Shown here: positions 5,241 through 14,348 of the stretch, one piece after another
Layout: each line of letters opens with the position of its first letter
How positions within the stretch are numbered: position 1 is the first letter of the stretch
Assembly (NCBI GenBank): GCA_004124475.1
Contig: SCKK01000033.1
Coordinates: 1-37,983, forward strand
DNA from: Fidelibacterota bacterium
GTDB taxonomy: Bacteria; Fidelibacterota; Marinisomatia; Marinisomatales; SCKK01
DNA: 37,983 nucleotides
Direction: 5' to 3'
Position numbers and translations under genes: made by a program
The notes under the pieces: model-generated
Seen by the model: the letters and a program-made list of their open reading frames with translations, nothing else
Database searches by the model: none
What the model was told of the DNA's origin: nothing

Positions 5241-5272
5241 TTGATGATTAATTCAAGGAAGGAATGAATAAT

Positions 5273-6412
5273 ATGACAAAAATAAAAACCGTTATCGTCG
5301 ATGCAATTCGCTCCCCCATCGGGGTGAAGCGAGGAATAATGGCTGGCAATATCAGAAGTGATGATCTTACAGCTCAAGTGATTAAAAAATTACTGGAGAG
5401 GAATCCAAACCTTCCTCTTGAAAAAATTGAGGATGTAGTACTTGGATGCGCCTTTCCCGAAGGACCCCAAGGTATGTTATTAGCAAGAACAGTTTCTGTC
5501 CTATCCGGAATACCCATCGAAGCAGGCGCAAAAGTGGTCAATCGGTTCTGTGGCTCATCCATGGATGCAGTTCATCAACTAAGCCAGGCGATTGGTACAG
5601 GAGATATTGAAGTGGGTATTGCCGCTGGAGTCGAAGACATGTTTTCAGTCCCCATGGGCGGGTTCGCTCCCGATTTCCATCCTGGACTGGCAGAACAGGA
5701 CTTCTATATTGGTATGGGTGAAACCGCTGAAAATCTGGCAAAAGATGGACAAATATCCAGAGAAGATCAGGATGATTTTTCCATAGCGTCCCACAAAAAA
5801 ACTTTAAAAGCTTATGAGGAAGGTCGATTCGAGAATGAAGTTGTTCCTATAGAATTAGAAGATGGTGCTGTAGTAGATAGAGATGAAGGTCCCATGGAAC
5901 CTAATGTTGAAAAAATCCGATCGTTGAATCCAGCCTTTATAGAAAATGGAACGGTAACTGCCGCCTCCAGCTCCCCTATCTCTCTCGGCGCTTCTGCAGC
6001 AATCATCACCAGTGAATCGTTCGCAATAAAATATAATCTCTCCATAAGAGCAGAAATCATTTCACGGGCGATCGCTGGAGTAGAATGGGACAGAATGGGT
6101 AAGGGTCCTCTCCCAGCTACCAAAAAAGCTCTGTCAAAAATTGGAATGGAAATCGAGGATATGGATGCCATCGAATTAAACGAGGCATTTGCTGCTCAGT
6201 CCCTTTATGTAATCAGGGAAGGTGGGTGGCCAATGGACAAAATTAACTTAAATGGCGGAGCGATTGCATTAGGTCATCCCCTTGGCTGCTCCGGAGTTAG
6301 AATTATTACAACTTTGGTCAATGTGTTGGAACAGATCGACGGAAAAGTTGGTCTTGCTACCATGTGTATTGGTAGCGGACAGGGGATTGCAACCGTAATA
6401 AAACGACCATAA
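5273..6412 (+). CDS. fadA: Acetyl-CoA acyltransferase (thiolase, FadA)
   Basis: 379 residues. This is a thiolase that cleaves 3-ketoacyl-CoA to acetyl-CoA and a shortened acyl-CoA, the last step of beta-oxidation. Cys93 in NRFCGSSMDAV is the acyl-accepting cysteine. GGAIALGHPLGCSG supplies the catalytic histidine, and ATMCIGSGQG contains the second cysteine. The ATG at 5273 is chosen over the ATG at 5264 because AGGAAGGA (5256-5263) directly abuts the earlier one but is 9 bp from the later one. It is in the same direction as fadE. The next operon member, fadN, is separated by an inserted S23 cassette of about 640 bp. Confidence 0.95.
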   Translation: MTKIKTVIVDAIRSPIGVKRGIMAGNIRSDDLTAQVIKKLLERNPNLPLEKIEDVVLGCAFPEGPQGMLLARTVSVLSGIPIEAGAKVVNRFCGSSMDAVHQLSQAIGTGDIEVGIAAGVEDMFSVPMGGFAPDFHPGLAEQDFYIGMGETAENLAKDGQISREDQDDFSIASHKKTLKAYEEGRFENEVVPIELEDGAVVDRDEGPMEPNVEKIRSLNPAFIENGTVTAASSSPISLGASAAIITSESFAIKYNLSIRAEIISRAIAGVEWDRMGKGPLPATKKALSKIGMEIEDMDAIELNEAFAAQSLYVIREGGWPMDKINLNGGAIALGHPLGCSGVRIITTLVNVLEQIDGKVGLATMCIGSGQGIATVIKRP

Positions 6413-6434
6413 AAAGTAATATGGCGTAAAAATA

Positions 6435-6490
6435 AAGTAACAAGTTTCAAGTTTCAAGTAACAAGTGTCAAGTAACAAGTGTCAAGTAAT
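6435..6490 (+). repeat. Left heptanucleotide array (AAGTNNN x8)
   Basis: Eight consecutive 7-nt units in register: AAGTAAC, AAGTTTC, AAGTTTC, AAGTAAC, AAGTGTC, AAGTAAC, AAGTGTC, AAGTAAT. A related array lies in inverse orientation at 7033-7075, on the far side of the S23 gene, so a transcript could pair the two ends. Confidence 0.9.
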
Positions 6491-6526
6491 AAAATGTTAA
6501 ATCAATGTTGTCGGAGGGAATAGCCT

Positions 6527-6941
6527 TTGGAATACTTAAAAGTTGAAGAGACTAAAAGTGGTTGGATAATAAAAGAACCTATAAAGGGTTATGAGATAGA
6601 TTTGTTAGATAGGACTTTTGAGTTTGCAATTTTGGTATTGGAGACTCTTCAAACAATAGGATATGAAAAAGAAAAGGACGTTGTTCGCTATCAATTAGCG
6701 AAAAGTGGTACATCTGTAGGTGTCCCGACTTGTCGGGAAAGAGGCACAAGGAGCAAGCTCGAGAAAAGACTTTTCAAATAAAATTAAAATTGTATATCGA
6801 GAAGTAAGAGAATCGCATTACTGGTCTCGTATCCTTAGTAGAATGGGTTGGGGGAATAAAGAAAAAGTGAAATACTTGGTTAACGAATGCAGTGAATTAA
6901 AGAAAATATTTGGTCGAATTAGACAAATATTAAAAAACTAG
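6527..6941 (+). pseudogene. S23 / four-helix-bundle protein (23S rRNA intervening-sequence type), frameshifted
   Basis: The gene starts at a TTG (6527) with a strong GGAGGG eight bases upstream. The first frame ends in VVRYQLAKSGTSVG, and a second frame resumes with EAQGASSRKDFSNKIKI and REVRESHYWSRILSRMGW. Together these are the conserved core of S23 proteins, the small helical proteins first seen in 23S rRNA intervening sequences and related to the Avd factors of diversity-generating retroelements. Where the family has roughly GANYREAQ, the sequence carries the palindrome TCCCGACTTGTCGGGA (6723-6738), which shifts the frame. The intact protein would be about 130 residues. It sits between inverted heptanucleotide arrays within the fad gene cluster. 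Confidence 0.8.
6723..6738. repeat. CCCGA/TCGGG palindrome inside the S23 gene
   Basis: TCCCGACTTGTCGGGA has 7-bp arms and a 2-nt loop. It replaces conserved codons of the S23 gene and causes its frameshift. The same core palindrome recurs in other gaps of the window (12017, 16506, 30427, 33416). Confidence 0.8.
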
Positions 6942-7032
6942 GATTAGATCAATATTGATATTCCAAAGACATCATGCTAAGTAAAAAAGCGATGAATTTT
7001 TGTATAAAAGTGCTAATACACTATTTTTCTTA

Positions 7033-7075
7033 ATTACTTGAAACTTGTTACTTCCTACTTGTTACTTTTTTACTT
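7033..7075 (-). repeat. Right heptanucleotide array, inverted
   Basis: Read on the plus strand: ATTACTT, GAAACTT, GTTACTT, CCTACTT, GTTACTT and one 8-nt TTTTACTT unit. Its complement is AAGTNNN, the same unit as at 6435-6490, so the two arrays flank the S23 gene head to head. Confidence 0.88.
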
Positions 7076-7102
7076 AAACATTAAAGTTATGGAGAAATAA
7101 TT

Positions 7103-9445
7103 ATGTCACGGAAAATTAAAAAAGTCGCTGTCTTAGGGGCAGGAACCATGGGCGCCCAAATCGCTGGTCATCTTGCAAATGCAGGTATTCCATCTCTGCT
7201 CTATGATCTGAATCAAGAGTTAGCCAATAACGGATTGAAAACTTTGACAACCCTGAAACCAGCCCCTCTTTACGATAAAAAGAATGTGGAACTTATCCAG
7301 CCATGTAATTATGAAGAACATATAAATCTTCTTAATGATGTCGATTGGGTGATTGAAGCTGTAGCAGAAAAACTCAGTATCAAACATAAGGTTTTTGAAA
7401 ACGTGGTTTCTCACGTAAAGGATGACGTGATCTTATCCACAAACACTTCAGGCCTTTCCGTAGAAGAAATAAGAAAATCCTTACCAGATAACTTTCAAGA
7501 TAGATTCCTTTTGACGCATTTTTTTAACCCTCCCCGTTATCTGAGACTCGTAGAAGTTGTGACGGATGGTGTTGACAAGGATATCATCAATACCATGGTT
7601 GATTTTCTTGAAAACGCGCTTGGCAAAGGAGTTGTCTACGCTAAGGACACACCCAATTTTATCGCCAACCGGATTGGTGTCTACGGGATGATGCTTACGT
7701 TAAAAATGACTGAAGAGATGGGCTTAACAGTGGAAGAAGTCGACAAATTAACCGGAACGATTGTGGGACGTCCCAAAAGCGCTACATTCCGAACATCAGA
7801 TGTTGTGGGTCTCGATATCATGACCCATGTAGCTACATCTTCTTACGAACGGTGTTTAGACGATGAAGAACGTGATACTTTCAAAATACCTGATTATCTC
7901 CAAAAACTTGTGAAGGAAGGACGACTTGGACAAAAAACAAAAGCCGGTTTTTATAAAAAGACAGACGAAGGCATTTTATCACTCGATTTTAAAACACTTG
8001 AGTATACACCGCAGAAACGTGTGCGATTTGATGGGTATCGCCTGGCAAAAGATCGCTCTACCACCAGTGAAAAGATTAAAGCGCTTACCTACAGTGATGA
8101 CAAAGCAGGGAAATTTTTCTGGGAGATACTCTCAAGAACCCTAATTTACAGTGCCAACCGAATTCCGGAAATCTCAGATGATATTGTCAATGTTGATAAT
8201 GCAATGAAGTGGGGGTTTGGCTGGGAGTTGGGTCCCTTTGAGACTTGGGATGCAATTGGCGTTGAAACTTCCATAAACCGGATGAAAGACGAAGGTAAAA
8301 ATGTACCTTCTTGGGTCGAAGAAATGGTAAGCAGAGAAAGGTGTACATTTTACGATACTAGTGAAGGTCAAAAGACCTTCTACCATATCCCTGATAAAGT
8401 GGGTAAAACAATAAAAAGTCATGAGAAATCCATCAACCTTTCAATTGAGAAATCTAAGGGAAATGAAATTAAACGGGATTGGAGCGCCAGTCTTATAGAC
8501 TTGGGTGATGGCGTTCTGAACGTAGAATTTCACAGTATTCTCCAACCAACATTAAATCCTATTGATACATCGCTTGCAGACACAATTAATGATGCCTTAG
8601 ACCTGGTGGAAGACGGGAAATATGTTGGTTTTGTTATGGGTCATGACGGTCAAAACTTTTGTGCAGGTGCCAATTTGAAACTCATTCTCCAAGCATGTGA
8701 AGAGGAAAATTGGAAAACCCTTGAAAATATAATCAAAAACCTCCAAGATTTAACCCAACGGATTCGATTTCTCAAAGCCCCCGTAGTGGCAGCCCCTTTC
8801 AACCTGGTCCTGGGTGGGGGATATGAATTGATAGGTCCCTGCGCCAAACGGGTCGCCTTCGCAGAACTTTACTGTGGGTTAGTAGAAGTAGGCGTGGGAC
8901 TTATTCCTGGTGCGGGTGGAAATCTTCGTATACTTTTGAACCTTATTGACAGTACCGGTAACAAAAAGATTCCTCCGTTCCAGATCTCTCAAAAAGCCTT
9001 GGAAGTTATTGGATTTGCAAAGGTGTCCTTCTCTGCTCAACACGCAAAGAAATTAAACTACCTGAAACCCGATGATGAAATCATTTTGAATAGAGATCAT
9101 TTAATTCAACGGGCTAAAGAAGTCGTATTAGAATTGACAGATGGATATGAACCTCCTGAGTACCGCAACAACATTCTATTGGCTGGAAAAGGCGGAAGAG
9201 TCGCCATGATGGTAGCACTAAAGGGGTATCGTGTCCGGGGTAAGATTTCATCCCATGATGAATTTATCGCTAAAAAATTGGCTTTTGTTTTAACCGGCGG
9301 CGATAAAGGTGGACCCACTAAACCTGTGGATGAACAGTACCTTCTCGATATTGAACGGGAAGCTTTCTTAAGCCTCTGCGGAGAAGAAAAAACCCACGAT
9401 CGAATCAGATATATGCTTAAAAAAGGGAAGCCCCTACGAAACTGA
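7103..9445 (+). CDS. fadN: 3-hydroxyacyl-CoA dehydrogenase / enoyl-CoA hydratase (FadN type)
   Basis: 780 residues. A bifunctional beta-oxidation enzyme in the order of Bacillus FadN: dehydrogenase first, hydratase last, the reverse of E. coli FadB. The NAD-binding GAGTMG lies at residues 12-17. LTHFFNPPRYLRLVEVV and DTPNFIANRIG belong to the 3-hydroxyacyl-CoA dehydrogenase. The crotonase domain (about residues 470-690) has GQNFCAGANL, Glu575 in GGGYEL and Glu595 in VEVGVGLIPGAGG. These two glutamates are 20 residues apart, as the catalytic pair is in classical hydratases. GGAG precedes the ATG by about 8 bp. It completes the FadE-FadA-FadN set. Confidence 0.94.
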   Translation: MSRKIKKVAVLGAGTMGAQIAGHLANAGIPSLLYDLNQELANNGLKTLTTLKPAPLYDKKNVELIQPCNYEEHINLLNDVDWVIEAVAEKLSIKHKVFENVVSHVKDDVILSTNTSGLSVEEIRKSLPDNFQDRFLLTHFFNPPRYLRLVEVVTDGVDKDIINTMVDFLENALGKGVVYAKDTPNFIANRIGVYGMMLTLKMTEEMGLTVEEVDKLTGTIVGRPKSATFRTSDVVGLDIMTHVATSSYERCLDDEERDTFKIPDYLQKLVKEGRLGQKTKAGFYKKTDEGILSLDFKTLEYTPQKRVRFDGYRLAKDRSTTSEKIKALTYSDDKAGKFFWEILSRTLIYSANRIPEISDDIVNVDNAMKWGFGWELGPFETWDAIGVETSINRMKDEGKNVPSWVEEMVSRERCTFYDTSEGQKTFYHIPDKVGKTIKSHEKSINLSIEKSKGNEIKRDWSASLIDLGDGVLNVEFHSILQPTLNPIDTSLADTINDALDLVEDGKYVGFVMGHDGQNFCAGANLKLILQACEEENWKTLENIIKNLQDLTQRIRFLKAPVVAAPFNLVLGGGYELIGPCAKRVAFAELYCGLVEVGVGLIPGAGGNLRILLNLIDSTGNKKIPPFQISQKALEVIGFAKVSFSAQHAKKLNYLKPDDEIILNRDHLIQRAKEVVLELTDGYEPPEYRNNILLAGKGGRVAMMVALKGYRVRGKISSHDEFIAKKLAFVLTGGDKGGPTKPVDEQYLLDIEREAFLSLCGEEKTHDRIRYMLKKGKPLRN

Positions 9446-9890: not shown

Positions 9891-10349
9891 TCAAGAAATA
9901 ATAAAAACACCAACTACGCTAATTGGAAAAATCAGGGAAAGTCCTAGTTGGATGATAATATATACGGAATATTTTTCATAGTATATGCAAATAAGCGCCA
10001 TTTCAACCGTCTTACTTTTATTGGGTTTTACCGCATCACTTGATCTGAGATACTCATCATCGGTCCCTACTAGGGAGATGTCATCCAGTGTCATCTGGAT
10101 GAACTTGGAGCTTTTAGAGCAATACTCGCTTTTTGGATCGTGTGCCAAATTCTCAAGTTCCCGCTTTCGCTGTTCATATTTCACGGAGAGGAACCGGAGG
10201 AAGATAATGGGTAGCACATAGTGTTTGTACTCTGCCGGCCCCACTACACCCCGGAGGTTGGTGGCCGCCTCCCACAGGCCTTTCAGGAGTTTCTCAGTTG
10301 ATTCCGAAGCTTCAGTCATTGCTCGTGCGGGACCTACCATACTTACCAA
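9891..10349 (-). pseudogene. Type I restriction-modification methyltransferase HsdM, N-terminal remnant
   Basis: The first about 85 residues match the N-terminal helical domain of HsdM: EKLLKGLWEAATNLRG, AEYKHYVLPIIFLRFLS and the DPKSEY region. HsdM is the adenine methyltransferase subunit of type I systems and normally exceeds 450 residues. Here homology fades near residue 95. The frame continues into AT-rich sequence with no catalytic NPPF motif and stops at 9891. No hsdS or hsdR is visible nearby, so this is a relic. The start is uncertain (TTG 10349, ATG 10340 or ATG 10319); the domain itself begins near 10319. Type I loci often carry toxin-antitoxin genes, and one lies just upstream here. 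Confidence 0.75.
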
Positions 10350-10416
10350 GGGAAAGCTGGAAAACGAAAATACGCTCGCCAGATCGTTGTCTCAATGATT
10401 CTCACCACACCGTCCT

Positions 10417-10698
10417 CTACTGACCATATACCTCCCCATGGCTCCCCACGCTGATAGGCACGATGGTATCTTCCTTGAAGATGAAATGTAAGACAATTCG
10501 ATAACTAATATTGATAGAAACGGCGTACAGGTCCTTGAACTTTCCGGTAAGTTTGTGCAGGCGAATAGAAGGGTGCTGAGGGTTCACTTCTAATAGCTTA
10601 AGAGTCTTGCGATATTGCTCCTTTAATTCCGAGGGTTGATTTACGAATTTCCTTGCTCTCCGATGATAAGACTTGGTGTAGCGGATCTTATAGCTCAT
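10417..10698 (-). CDS. RelE/ParE-family toxin
   Basis: 93 residues with the small basic RelE/ParE fold. It opens with YKIRYTKSYHRRARKF, has LHKLTGKFKDLYAVSINISYRIVLHF in the middle, and ends in VGSHGEVYG, the signature tail of many RelE-like plasmid-stabilisation toxins. Members usually cleave mRNA on the ribosome; some poison gyrase. Sequence alone does not settle which. The ATG at 10698 overlaps the antitoxin gene's end by 11 bp, so the pair is translationally coupled. It is downstream of the antitoxin, the usual order for Phd/YefM-type pairs. Confidence 0.88.
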   Translation of the reverse strand: MSYKIRYTKSYHRRARKFVNQPSELKEQYRKTLKLLEVNPQHPSIRLHKLTGKFKDLYAVSINISYRIVLHFIFKEDTIVPISVGSHGEVYGQ

Positions 10699-10945
10699 TC
10701 TCCATTCGCTCGATGTGCTCGTCTACCGATTCCTCCACGAAGTCTCCTTTCTCCAGGTCACTGAGGGATTCTGCCAGAGCTGCTTCCAGTTCACACTCCC
10801 GGAGGTAGTTATACCGCTCAATATCCATAACCACAAAGCGATCTTTTCCACGAACTGTAATGGAGACTTCCTCCGAATCTTTGAGAGCTTCCTCCAGGCT
10901 TTTGGCACCCTTTGTTTTCAATTCATTAGCTGTTAATGTAGTCAT
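10688..10945 (-). CDS. Phd/YefM-type antitoxin
   Basis: 85 residues from the ATG at 10945, preceded by AGGAAG. The N-terminal domain (LTANELKTKGAKSLEEAL, then VSITVRGKDRFVVMDIERYNYL) is the DNA-binding fold of Phd/YefM antitoxins. The C-terminal half is acidic and helical, as expected for toxin wrapping. A longer in-frame start at 11083 would add 46 residues that do not match the family and would overrun the promoter. It is expected to repress its own promoter through the palindrome at 10982-11001, together with the toxin. Confidence 0.88.
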   Translation of the reverse strand: MTTLTANELKTKGAKSLEEALKDSEEVSITVRGKDRFVVMDIERYNYLRECELEAALAESLSDLEKGDFVEESVDEHIERMENEL

Positions 10946-10980
10946 TTGATCTTCCTGAAGTCTTATTATTGGTTTGATTA

Positions 10981-11009
10981 ATAGTACGAATATTTGTACT
11001 AAATGTAAA
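10981..11009 (-). promoter_or_regulatory. Toxin-antitoxin promoter with embedded operator
   Basis: On the minus strand TTTACA (11009-11004) and TACTAT (10986-10981) are exactly 17 bp apart, a near-consensus sigma-70 promoter. The spacer and -10 contain TAGTACGAATATTTGTACTA (10982-11001), a 20-bp palindrome broken by one base pair. Antitoxin bound there would occlude RNA polymerase. The antitoxin ATG is about 35 bp downstream. Confidence 0.72.
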
Positions 11010-11176
11010 CCTTTTACTCTCCCTCCACTACACTTTTTTTCAATCGCCTTGCCTCCTCCCACTTGAGGCTCACTTTTACCCATGACTGAAAAAGCTGCAG
11101 TGTCAACTGTGTCCCAAAATCAGCATCAAACGGGGTGGATCCCGTCCCAAAACCTCAGGACTGGAAACATGGGTTG

Positions 11177-12884: not shown

Positions 12885-13811
12885 TCATATCCCAAGAACA
12901 TTTCTCCTTGTTTCGATTAACTCCAAATACTTTAACTTCATGGCATCAGATAAAAAACTGATTTCAATCAGGTTTTGCCAATGTGAGATAGCATCATGGA
13001 GGAAGTCTAAAACGTCTCTAATTGTAGGTTGATTAAGGCGAAGACGTTCTTCACCGAAGTACTTTATCAGGTCATTTCTTGTCAAATTTCTTTTTTTTCC
13101 GTGAATAGGAAGAGCTATCTCTTCTTCCGGATTAGTCTGCGCAATTGTCGTATTAATCAAATCGTAAGCCGGAGATATCTCAACCTTTGATGACCTTGTT
13201 ATCAATGAGAAATTTTTCAAATGCATATCTTCATTTCCTATTAGATAATTGAATACGGTCAGCCGGAAAAGTTTTAATTTTTCAAGTGCAGGGAATGTAC
13301 AGTAATCGAGTAGATGGACTATCTTCTCCATCGAATATTTGTATTTTGTATCCCTACTCAATCCTGCTAACTGGGCAAAGTCCTCAACTGGTAATTTCCG
13401 GTTTCGACCCATTCTATCAAATCTTTTGATGAAGTATGTCAGTGAACCATCTTTGGAACAAATGAGTCCATGAAGCGGTACTTCGATACCAGCCGTCTTT
13501 GCTAACTTCATAGTGAGATCCTCGTTTTCCGGAAGTTCCAAATAAATAATATTTTGAGGTTTTAAGATATATTTTCCTCCGGTATCTACGACTTGAAACA
13601 TTTCTTCCTTCACTTTTAAAACAGCGCTTAACTTTGGTTGGACACCTTGAATGGACATTTTCACCGCTCGAGTAACAGCTTCATTTCGCTGTTCCTGAGC
13701 AGTATAAGGAAAACCACGAAGCTGGTTTAAGTTTCTTGATAGGAGATGAAGACCCTTTTGTGAGTACCTTTCTGTACCACAAACTTCATAGGTGATTGGG
13801 CAACGATTCAT
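12885..13811 (-). CDS. hipT: HipT-like serine/threonine kinase toxin
   Basis: 308 residues, the kinase part of a HipA protein without its N-terminal subdomain. The Gly-rich loop region is MSIQGVQPK (residues 52-60), with Ser53 and Gln55 where HipT toxins have a phosphorylatable Ser-x-Ser-type motif. Lys84 in YILKPQ is the probable ATP lysine. Catalytic Asp195 and Asn200 lie in GNEDMHLKNF, and metal-binding Asp217 is in ISPAYDL. HipA/HipT kinases phosphorylate aminoacyl-tRNA synthetases (GltX for HipA, TrpS for E. coli HipT); the target here is unknown. The ATG overlaps the hipS stop by 4 bp. Together with hipS and hipB this is the split HipBST arrangement. Confidence 0.88.
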   Translation of the reverse strand: MNRCPITYEVCGTERYSQKGLHLLSRNLNQLRGFPYTAQEQRNEAVTRAVKMSIQGVQPKLSAVLKVKEEMFQVVDTGGKYILKPQNIIYLELPENEDLTMKLAKTAGIEVPLHGLICSKDGSLTYFIKRFDRMGRNRKLPVEDFAQLAGLSRDTKYKYSMEKIVHLLDYCTFPALEKLKLFRLTVFNYLIGNEDMHLKNFSLITRSSKVEISPAYDLINTTIAQTNPEEEIALPIHGKKRNLTRNDLIKYFGEERLRLNQPTIRDVLDFLHDAISHWQNLIEISFLSDAMKLKYLELIETRRNVLGI

Positions 13812-14119
13812 TCTACTTCTTCCACCGTAGCGGCACCCACCAAATCTTGACCCACAGCCAAAAGCTGACTGAAATAGTCATACTGGTCAATCTTCCTTAG
13901 ACGAAGTAATCCTTCTAACATGACGCCTTCCGGTAACAGTCCATCAAAAAAAGGAGGAAACCGGTCAAAGCTGTATGATCGTTGCGCCAACGGCATTGTC
14001 AACGATACGGGTGGTCCCTCGTAATCTTCGTCATATTCAAATTTATAAGACCGACTCCTCTCCAGCTCCTGTAGATAACCTGCTGAAATGCCATCAATGT
14101 ATACTTTAGCTTTTCTCAT
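13808..14119 (-). CDS. hipS: HipS-like antitoxin (HipA N-terminal subdomain as a separate protein)
   Basis: 103 residues: AKVYIDGISAGYLQEL, then FEYDEDYEGPPVSLTMPL and FPPFFDGLLPEGVMLEGLLR. This is the N-terminal subdomain found at the start of full-length HipA, here encoded separately. In E. coli HipBST this small protein, not HipB, neutralises HipT. Start chosen at 14119 (MRKAKV) because GAGGA lies 8 bp before it; an ATG at 14140 has no good ribosome site. The gene overlaps hipB by 14 bp and hipT by 4 bp, so the three are tightly coupled. Confidence 0.85.
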   Translation of the reverse strand: MRKAKVYIDGISAGYLQELERSRSYKFEYDEDYEGPPVSLTMPLAQRSYSFDRFPPFFDGLLPEGVMLEGLLRLRKIDQYDYFSQLLAVGQDLVGAATVEEVE

Positions 14120-14348
14120 TTTCAAATTCCTCGAATTCATTCATGAGAGGACTTTCATAAGTGATATGGATATTTAGAATCTCCAATATCTTCCATAAAG
14201 TATTCAATCTTATAGTTGTTTTGCCCTTTTCAATATCGTAAATAACCGTTTTCCCCACACCGGCTAAAGCTGCAAGCTCGTTCCGTGACAATCCACTCCT
14301 TTTCCGGTGGAATAAAACTATCCTCCCTATCTTATTTATATCACTCAT
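14106..14348 (-). CDS. hipB: HipB-like XRE-family DNA-binding antitoxin
   Basis: 80 residues. The Cro/C1-type helix-turn-helix is clear: [32 protein letters not shown], followed by TIRLNTLWKILEILNI. Its C-terminus is short and acidic (EFEEFENEKS). It is the first gene of the hipB-hipS-hipT operon, with AAAGGA seven bases before the ATG. As in other hip loci it should bind upstream operators and repress the operon. Three well-matched sites lie upstream at 14375, 14447 and 14519. Confidence 0.9.
   Translation of the reverse strand: MSDINKIGRIVLFHRKRSGLSRNELAALAGVGKTVIYDIEKGKTTIRLNTLWKILEILNIHITYESPLMNEFEEFENEKS

Follow-up and report, generated by a model that had tools for sequence, protein, structure and literature searches.

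We propose that the window, the whole stretch of 37,983 nucleotides analyzed here, carries a decayed copy of a short mobile element that has a single S23 gene and ends made of heptamer arrays, and that inserts in sense orientation into operons by a route that we propose to involve RNA; we place the probability of this reading at about 0.7. We conclude that the element is widespread and that the intervening sequences (IVSs) of rRNA genes are its rRNA-resident members, because the Coxiella 23S IVS has the same parts, heptamers included. Such elements had previously been described only inside rRNA genes, and relatives are now found in operons of bacteria and some archaea. Genes annotated as "four helix bundle protein" or "S23 ribosomal protein" occur widely and have so far had no assigned role, IVSs have so far had no origin and bacterial heptameric repeats no explanation; one element class would tie all three together.

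The Window Locus

The cassette lies in a fatty-acid-degradation operon, between co-directional genes for a thiolase and a 3-hydroxyacyl-CoA dehydrogenase (3HCDH), with TetR and acyl-CoA dehydrogenase genes upstream of the thiolase gene. The 690 nt that separate the two host genes hold both arrays and the S23 gene:

5264-6412, plus strand: thiolase (acetyl-CoA acyltransferase), upstream host gene
6412-7102, plus strand: whole insert, from the end of the thiolase gene (6412) to the 3HCDH ATG at 7103
6435-6488, plus strand: left array, eight AAGTNNN heptamers, all in register
6513-6518, plus strand: probable Shine-Dalgarno sequence GGAGGG, 8 nt 5' of TTG 6527
6527-6781, plus strand: N-terminal half of the S23 gene (PF05635/TIGR02436-type), from TTG 6527 to TAA 6781; the frame ends past the palindrome
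6723-6738, no strand: palindrome TCCCGACTTGTCGGGA, which shifts the S23 frame
6741-6941, plus strand: S23 gene, C-terminal half, in a different frame; Pfam hit at 6741-6908, TAG stop at 6939-6941
7034-7075, minus strand: right array of inverted AAGTNNN units, five in register plus one
7103-9445, plus strand: 3-hydroxyacyl-CoA dehydrogenase/enoyl-CoA hydratase fusion, downstream host gene

An earlier note on this DNA had described arrays on both sides of the S23 gene, within a split beta-oxidation operon. Both arrays are present, eight units on the left and six inverted units on the right, where five in-register units (7036-7067) are followed by one extra base and a sixth unit ending at 7075, and the thiolase and 3HCDH genes do flank the cassette in the same direction. 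Four-unit AAGTNNN runs number seven in the window, whereas 100 dinucleotide shuffles give an expectation of 0.00, so that the arrays are not due to chance. Junctions without the cassette, which the note had suggested looking for, were found in five relatives (L063, L076, L078, L080, L084), with the thiolase and 3HCDH genes 4-17 nt apart. Genome G003 likewise has an S23 gene immediately upstream of its own 3HCDH gene. The nearest empty site, at 73% identity, is too diverged to place the ends of the insert exactly, and we infer from the other occupied and empty sites described below that the ends of the window copy are its arrays. RNA folding of 6412-7102 predicts pairing between the left and right arrays in both the minimum free energy (MFE) and the centroid structure (z = -3.3); the suggested stem with the gene in its loop is therefore backed by prediction, while excision is still only predicted.

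Elsewhere in the window, three further features were seen by eye only: a fragment resembling the N-terminus of HsdM (type I restriction-modification) at 9891-11083, an adjoining YefM/YoeB-like small toxin-antitoxin pair on the minus strand, and two adjoining ORFs at 12885-14140 that resemble the N-terminal and C-terminal parts of a split HipA-like kinase.

A Decayed S23 Gene

The gene between the arrays matches PF05635 (S23/IVP family). This match comes from the C-terminal half, which scores 34.8 bits against a cut-off of 33.8 (32.1 bits in the genome scan), and the N-terminal half by itself (6527-6781) gave no Pfam match. The S23 proteins of sister copies score 70-119 bits against the TIGR02436 cut-off of 24. 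The window copy is a pseudogene, its halves lying in different frames with the break at the palindrome of 6723-6738; the S23 identity assigned earlier is thus upheld, and the gene is not intact. The palindrome is a dispersed repeat, present at about 21 places in the source genome when one mismatch is allowed. Short dispersed palindromes, TCCCGACNNGTCGGGA (these about 21 copies) and others of the CCGAAGGAACTCC type, lie within several S23 genes of this genome and break them: that of the window, L017/L018 (C16:212842-213166) and one in the L024 region. Solved S23 relatives are 2GSC (XCC0516) and 2RLD, and S23 is described as a homopentameric ring in a passage of PMC4990558 that cites Lin 2006.

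Copies and Arrays in the Source Genome

The source genome (3.15 Mb) contains 26 PF05635 matches, corresponding to about 23 S23 genes. Each copy has its own array unit (ACGTTAG, GTGAGTA, GGGTATA, GAAACTT, GGGGAGC, GCGGATT, and others), and AAGTNNN is private to the window copy, with no value as a family signature. The two arms of one copy nevertheless match. When every left flank was aligned with every reverse-complemented right flank, none of 20,000 shuffled pairings reached the observed sum, and arm matching at S23 copies exceeded that at 315 control ORFs (Mann-Whitney p = 5e-10). Inverted arrays are present in most of the flanks, and a few copies lack clear paired arrays.

Heptamer repeats could also have expanded by slippage in intergenic DNA and come to lie near S23 genes by chance. 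Such repeats are over-represented in many bacteria (PMC4692102), and solitary arrays do occur in the source genome. In 800 kb we counted 20 arrays of period 7, against 0-5 for other periods up to 13; period 14, a multiple of 7, gave seven. Ten of the period-7 arrays lie within 700 bp of an S23 gene and ten elsewhere. An inverted partner (alignment score of 17 or more) accompanies all ten of the former and none of the latter. The link between arrays and S23 genes drawn in the earlier note thus fails for arrays as such, which are equally common without S23, and holds for inverted-paired arrays, which in these 800 kb occur only near S23. Since the left and right arrays of a copy also have the same unit, and since inserts begin and finish at arrays, we consider unrelated satellites a very improbable explanation.

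Solitary heptamer arrays with neither S23 nor an inverted partner lie at C6:17246-17316, C16:211044-211095, C76:8667-8813 and C63:79456-79503 of G000, and are possibly single ends that remain after loss of a cassette.

The 584-bp cassette at C29:20369-20952 has a 96%-identical counterpart in a sister species, on the syntenic contig but displaced by about 11 kb; the orthologous site of that species is occupied by another S23 cassette with another unit. Positions in these sister genomes indicate that the element moves within the source genome's own genus, in agreement with the mobility proposed from the window alone.

Distribution Among Bacteria and Archaea

Order-level relatives also have paired inverted arrays at their S23 genes. 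The arm permutation test was weaker for these loci (L092-L119), with 85 of 20,000 permutations as good as the observed pairing, probably because related loci cross-match (one off-diagonal score reached 146). A scan of named genomes, made with a narrower S23 alignment because the 12-row one was too diverse, yielded 80 S23 loci in Proteobacteria, Bacteroidota, Clostridia, Chloroflexi, Planctomycetes, Acidobacteria, Gemmatimonadetes, Cyanobacteria, Patescibacteria, Cloacimonadota, and Methanophagales archaea. At 44 of the 73 loci with enough flank, an arm's own partner ranked first (chance expectation about 1). Period 7 accounts for 38 strong flanks and any other period among 3-13 for at most five, with period 8 in a minority of cassettes; about a quarter of the named loci lack clear paired arrays. 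Read from the outside inward, the arm is G-rich (G>C) in 42 of 44 cases. Of the 150+ S23 copies inspected overall, most are flanked by inverted arrays that form a pair, with a period of 7 and in rare cases of 8. The expectation that S23 genes with flanking arrays would be found in other genomes is hence borne out in many phyla for the arrangement, the AAGTNNN unit being confined to the window copy. A search for S23 in phages gave no match, and neither did one for large-subunit (LSU) rRNA near 18 S23 loci.

In the type I-D CRISPR operons of Anabaena sp. 90 and Pseudanabaena galeata, one and the same junction, cas6|cas4, is occupied by S23 cassettes (L201 and L394) whose units are unrelated.

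Occupied and Empty Sites

Orthologous sites with and without a cassette were compared in cyanobacterial plasmids, Mesorhizobium and Brevundimonas, and in all three the inserts are seen to start and end at the arrays. At a first cyanobacterial site (site A), the empty sequence of Tolypothrix and Nostoc linckia is GTTAAAAAGTAATTAACAAATAAATATG. The occupied site of Trichormus variabilis plasmid C and Scytonema reads GTTAAAAAGTAAT, followed by AAATCAGAATTCAGAAGTCAG, the S23 gene, CTCCTGAGTTCTTCTTT and then GTAATTAACAAATAAATATG, with an exact 5-bp target duplication (GTAAT) and flanks that are about 98% identical. Nostoc sp. ATCC 53789 has one three-gene operon on three plasmids: pNsp_a carries a cassette in junction 1 (g1|g2), pNsp_c a different cassette in junction 2 (g2|g3), and pNsp_b none. 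These sequences suggest short imperfect duplications of about 5 bp (TTCTA; TAATG/TTATG), of which TTCTA may be partly element-derived.

In Mesorhizobium, a cassette occupies one junction in 32 of 146 genomes. Among 16 further sites read there, a cassette is absent from seven, two contain paired hairpins that lack S23, and the rest have deleted or altered cassettes. In Brevundimonas (131 genomes searched), occupied sites show an imperfect duplication of about 13 bp, GGAGCC(C)GCATGA, that covers both the stop codon and the start codon. This same stop/start junction (L275-L298) is occupied in different species by two S23 lineages that differ in array unit, one sharing about 95-68% identity with the query and the other about 52-57%, which suggests repeated insertion at one site.

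These comparisons show the element, its array ends and its presence/absence polymorphism, and they support the earlier suggestion that the arrays are the ends, since empty sites of relatives end at the arrays. We found both things that are expected of mobile elements in general: occupied and empty orthologous sites, and near-identical copies at different loci. The empty sites contradict satellite expansion as the entire explanation, which we reject.

The same data can be read as those of a non-autonomous transposon acting at the DNA level, with the arrays as terminal inverted repeats moved by an unlinked transposase or by template switching at replication forks, S23 being carried along or acting as a regulator, and the RNA stem being incidental. 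A 5-bp target duplication is usual for DNA transposases, S23-less paired hairpins (L306, L312; L207, L210; L382, L384) resemble miniature inverted-repeat transposable elements (MITEs), and the arms homogenise as DNA palindromes would. Against this, S23 is the only gene common to inspected cassettes of many phyla and is under purifying selection, the terminal sequence varies between copies, unlike the ends that a transposase recognises, and placement is sense-only. We regard such a transposon as unlikely, while granting it a real chance. Our own reading has against it that the duplications, 5 bp and exact at site A and about 5 or about 13 bp and imperfect elsewhere, differ in length and match no single integrase.

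Orientation, Selection, and Evolution of the Arms

All 20 scorable S23 copies of the source genome are in sense orientation, co-directional with both neighbors, compared with 64% of other ORFs (P = 1.3e-4). Among the named loci, 40 are co-directional with both neighbors and five opposed to both. This sense bias, which is evident from gene order, could result from selection instead of mechanism: loss of antisense copies of a promoterless cassette would give the same picture as an RNA-dependent route.

Comparison of the Mesorhizobium genes indicates that S23 is under purifying selection at one old site (dN/dS = 0.077). Retention of the cassette at this site across 32 species is also what would be expected if it were not mobile but regulatory, with S23 autoregulating or tuning the operon through arrays in the mRNA, and kept because it is useful to the operon. 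TRAP, which binds phased NAG triplets, follows a comparable logic. The operon-internal, sense-only location and the phased arrays on the 5' side, with their excess of G over C, agree with such a role. It is harder to reconcile with host operons as unrelated as those for beta-oxidation, CRISPR cas6|cas4, plasmid functions and others, with the lack of the cassette in most relatives, and with the decay of many copies, that of the window included. A purely regulatory cassette thus seems to us improbable.

Array length ranges from 1 to 15 units, and the two arms are nearly independent in this respect (rho 0.24, p 0.2); this weak correlation, a point against our reading, implies that exact matching of the stem is not maintained. 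The unit itself changes in both arms together. Among 23 same-site Brevundimonas cassettes, own arms match best (0 of 20,000 permutations), and in L318 an 8-mer, GTAGGGCA, is found in both arms.

A Possible Route of Movement

In the mobile-element reading that we prefer, the element would measure about 0.4-0.7 kb, with S23/IVP as its sole gene and inverted tandem heptamer arrays as its termini. It would insert in sense between co-transcribed genes, typically at a stop/start junction, and would make a short target duplication on insertion, which leaves the stop codon of the upstream gene and the start codon of the downstream gene in place. Having no promoter of its own, it would be expressed as part of the host transcript, in which pairing of the two arms may give a long double-stranded stem that loops out the S23 frame; if RNase III can cleave this stem, insertion into an operon would be tolerated, as that of rRNA IVSs is in 23S rRNA.

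The S23 ring, a pentamer in a solved relative, might bind the phased heptamers of either arm and escort the cassette to a new site, either as this RNA or as DNA copied from it, with the chemistry left to a host polymerase or reverse transcriptase. To our knowledge S23 has no catalytic fold, and we count this against our reading. Hairpin template switching, in which one arm is copied from the other, could preserve arm identity and would allow the unit to drift while the stem persists. An RNA-dependent route, with S23 binding the arrays, is an inference that we favor because of the strict sense placement and the parallel with IVSs.

Comparison With Known Systems

The closest known systems are the 23S rRNA IVSs of Coxiella and Leptospira, which also have a single S23 gene and terminal inverted repeats whose pairing places the gene in the loop of a stem; the inverted repeats that end the cassettes can likewise pair into a stem enclosing the S23 frame. 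The Coxiella IVS encodes S23p and has a 28-bp stem at its termini; its 5' end has GACAGAT heptamers in a variable tandem array, and RNase III cuts at the first of them (PMC4990558). The same paper recalls older suggestions that IVSs are remnants of transposition or that the IVS ORF served mobility. Given one such element class, the proposal of the IVS gene as a mobility protein would become directly testable with the natural filled and empty sites of culturable cyanobacteria and alphaproteobacteria. Unlike IVSs, the window copy lies in a protein-coding operon (thiolase|3HCDH) and not in a helix of an rRNA gene, each copy has a unit of its own, and both presence/absence and target duplication are seen at many unrelated sites. 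Insertion outside rRNA, as conjectured earlier from the window, accordingly holds up in relatives. The Avd protein of diversity-generating retroelements (DGRs; NF033474) belongs to the same four-helix-bundle superfamily, and cassette S23 proteins match its model weakly, at 23-30 bits against a cut-off of 80, which places them outside the Avd family. No reverse transcriptase or second gene was found in the S23 cassettes inspected.

The heptamers of Xanthomonas and Nostoc, the TAACTGA arrays and the short tandemly repeated repetitive sequences (STRRs) of cyanobacteria share with the cassettes a period of 7, an intergenic location and frequent inverted pairs, and they have been described as repeats only. 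In Xanthomonas, GGGAATC forms 70-75 inverted pairs with no general association with mobile elements, and heptameric simple repeats are over-represented in many bacteria, the Nostoc unit being GGGGA(T/C)T (PMC4692102); TAACTGA arrays are further heptameric repeats (PMC4679880). Neither paper mentions S23, and the only link between S23 and heptamers that we found, in a literature search covering few subscription papers and no bioRxiv-only preprints, is the Coxiella observation. A gammaproteobacterial genome found through GGGAATC (G683) contains gene-less GGGAATC hairpins together with one S23 cassette that has the same GGGAATC ends, and cassette and hairpins have GTTCAAGC in common beside the array.

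With MITEs and other elements derived from insertion sequences, the cassettes share small size, multiple copies, terminal inverted repeats and target duplication. They differ in having tandem arrays as ends, a conserved protein that is not a transposase, and sense-only placement in operons. The conserved terminal sequence of a conventional DNA transposon or MITE was not found either, as the unit varies within a genome and between species at one site. These comparisons lead us to put forward, tentatively and with somewhat more doubt than belief, a separate class of mobile element in prokaryotes, whose whole mobility kit would be a non-enzymatic S23 ring together with self-made, drifting inverted heptamer arrays, and whose insertion into operon junctions would be transcription-dependent and sense-only; 23S rRNA IVSs, the Xanthomonas GGGAATC pairs and many heptameric repeats would then be its members or gene-less offspring.
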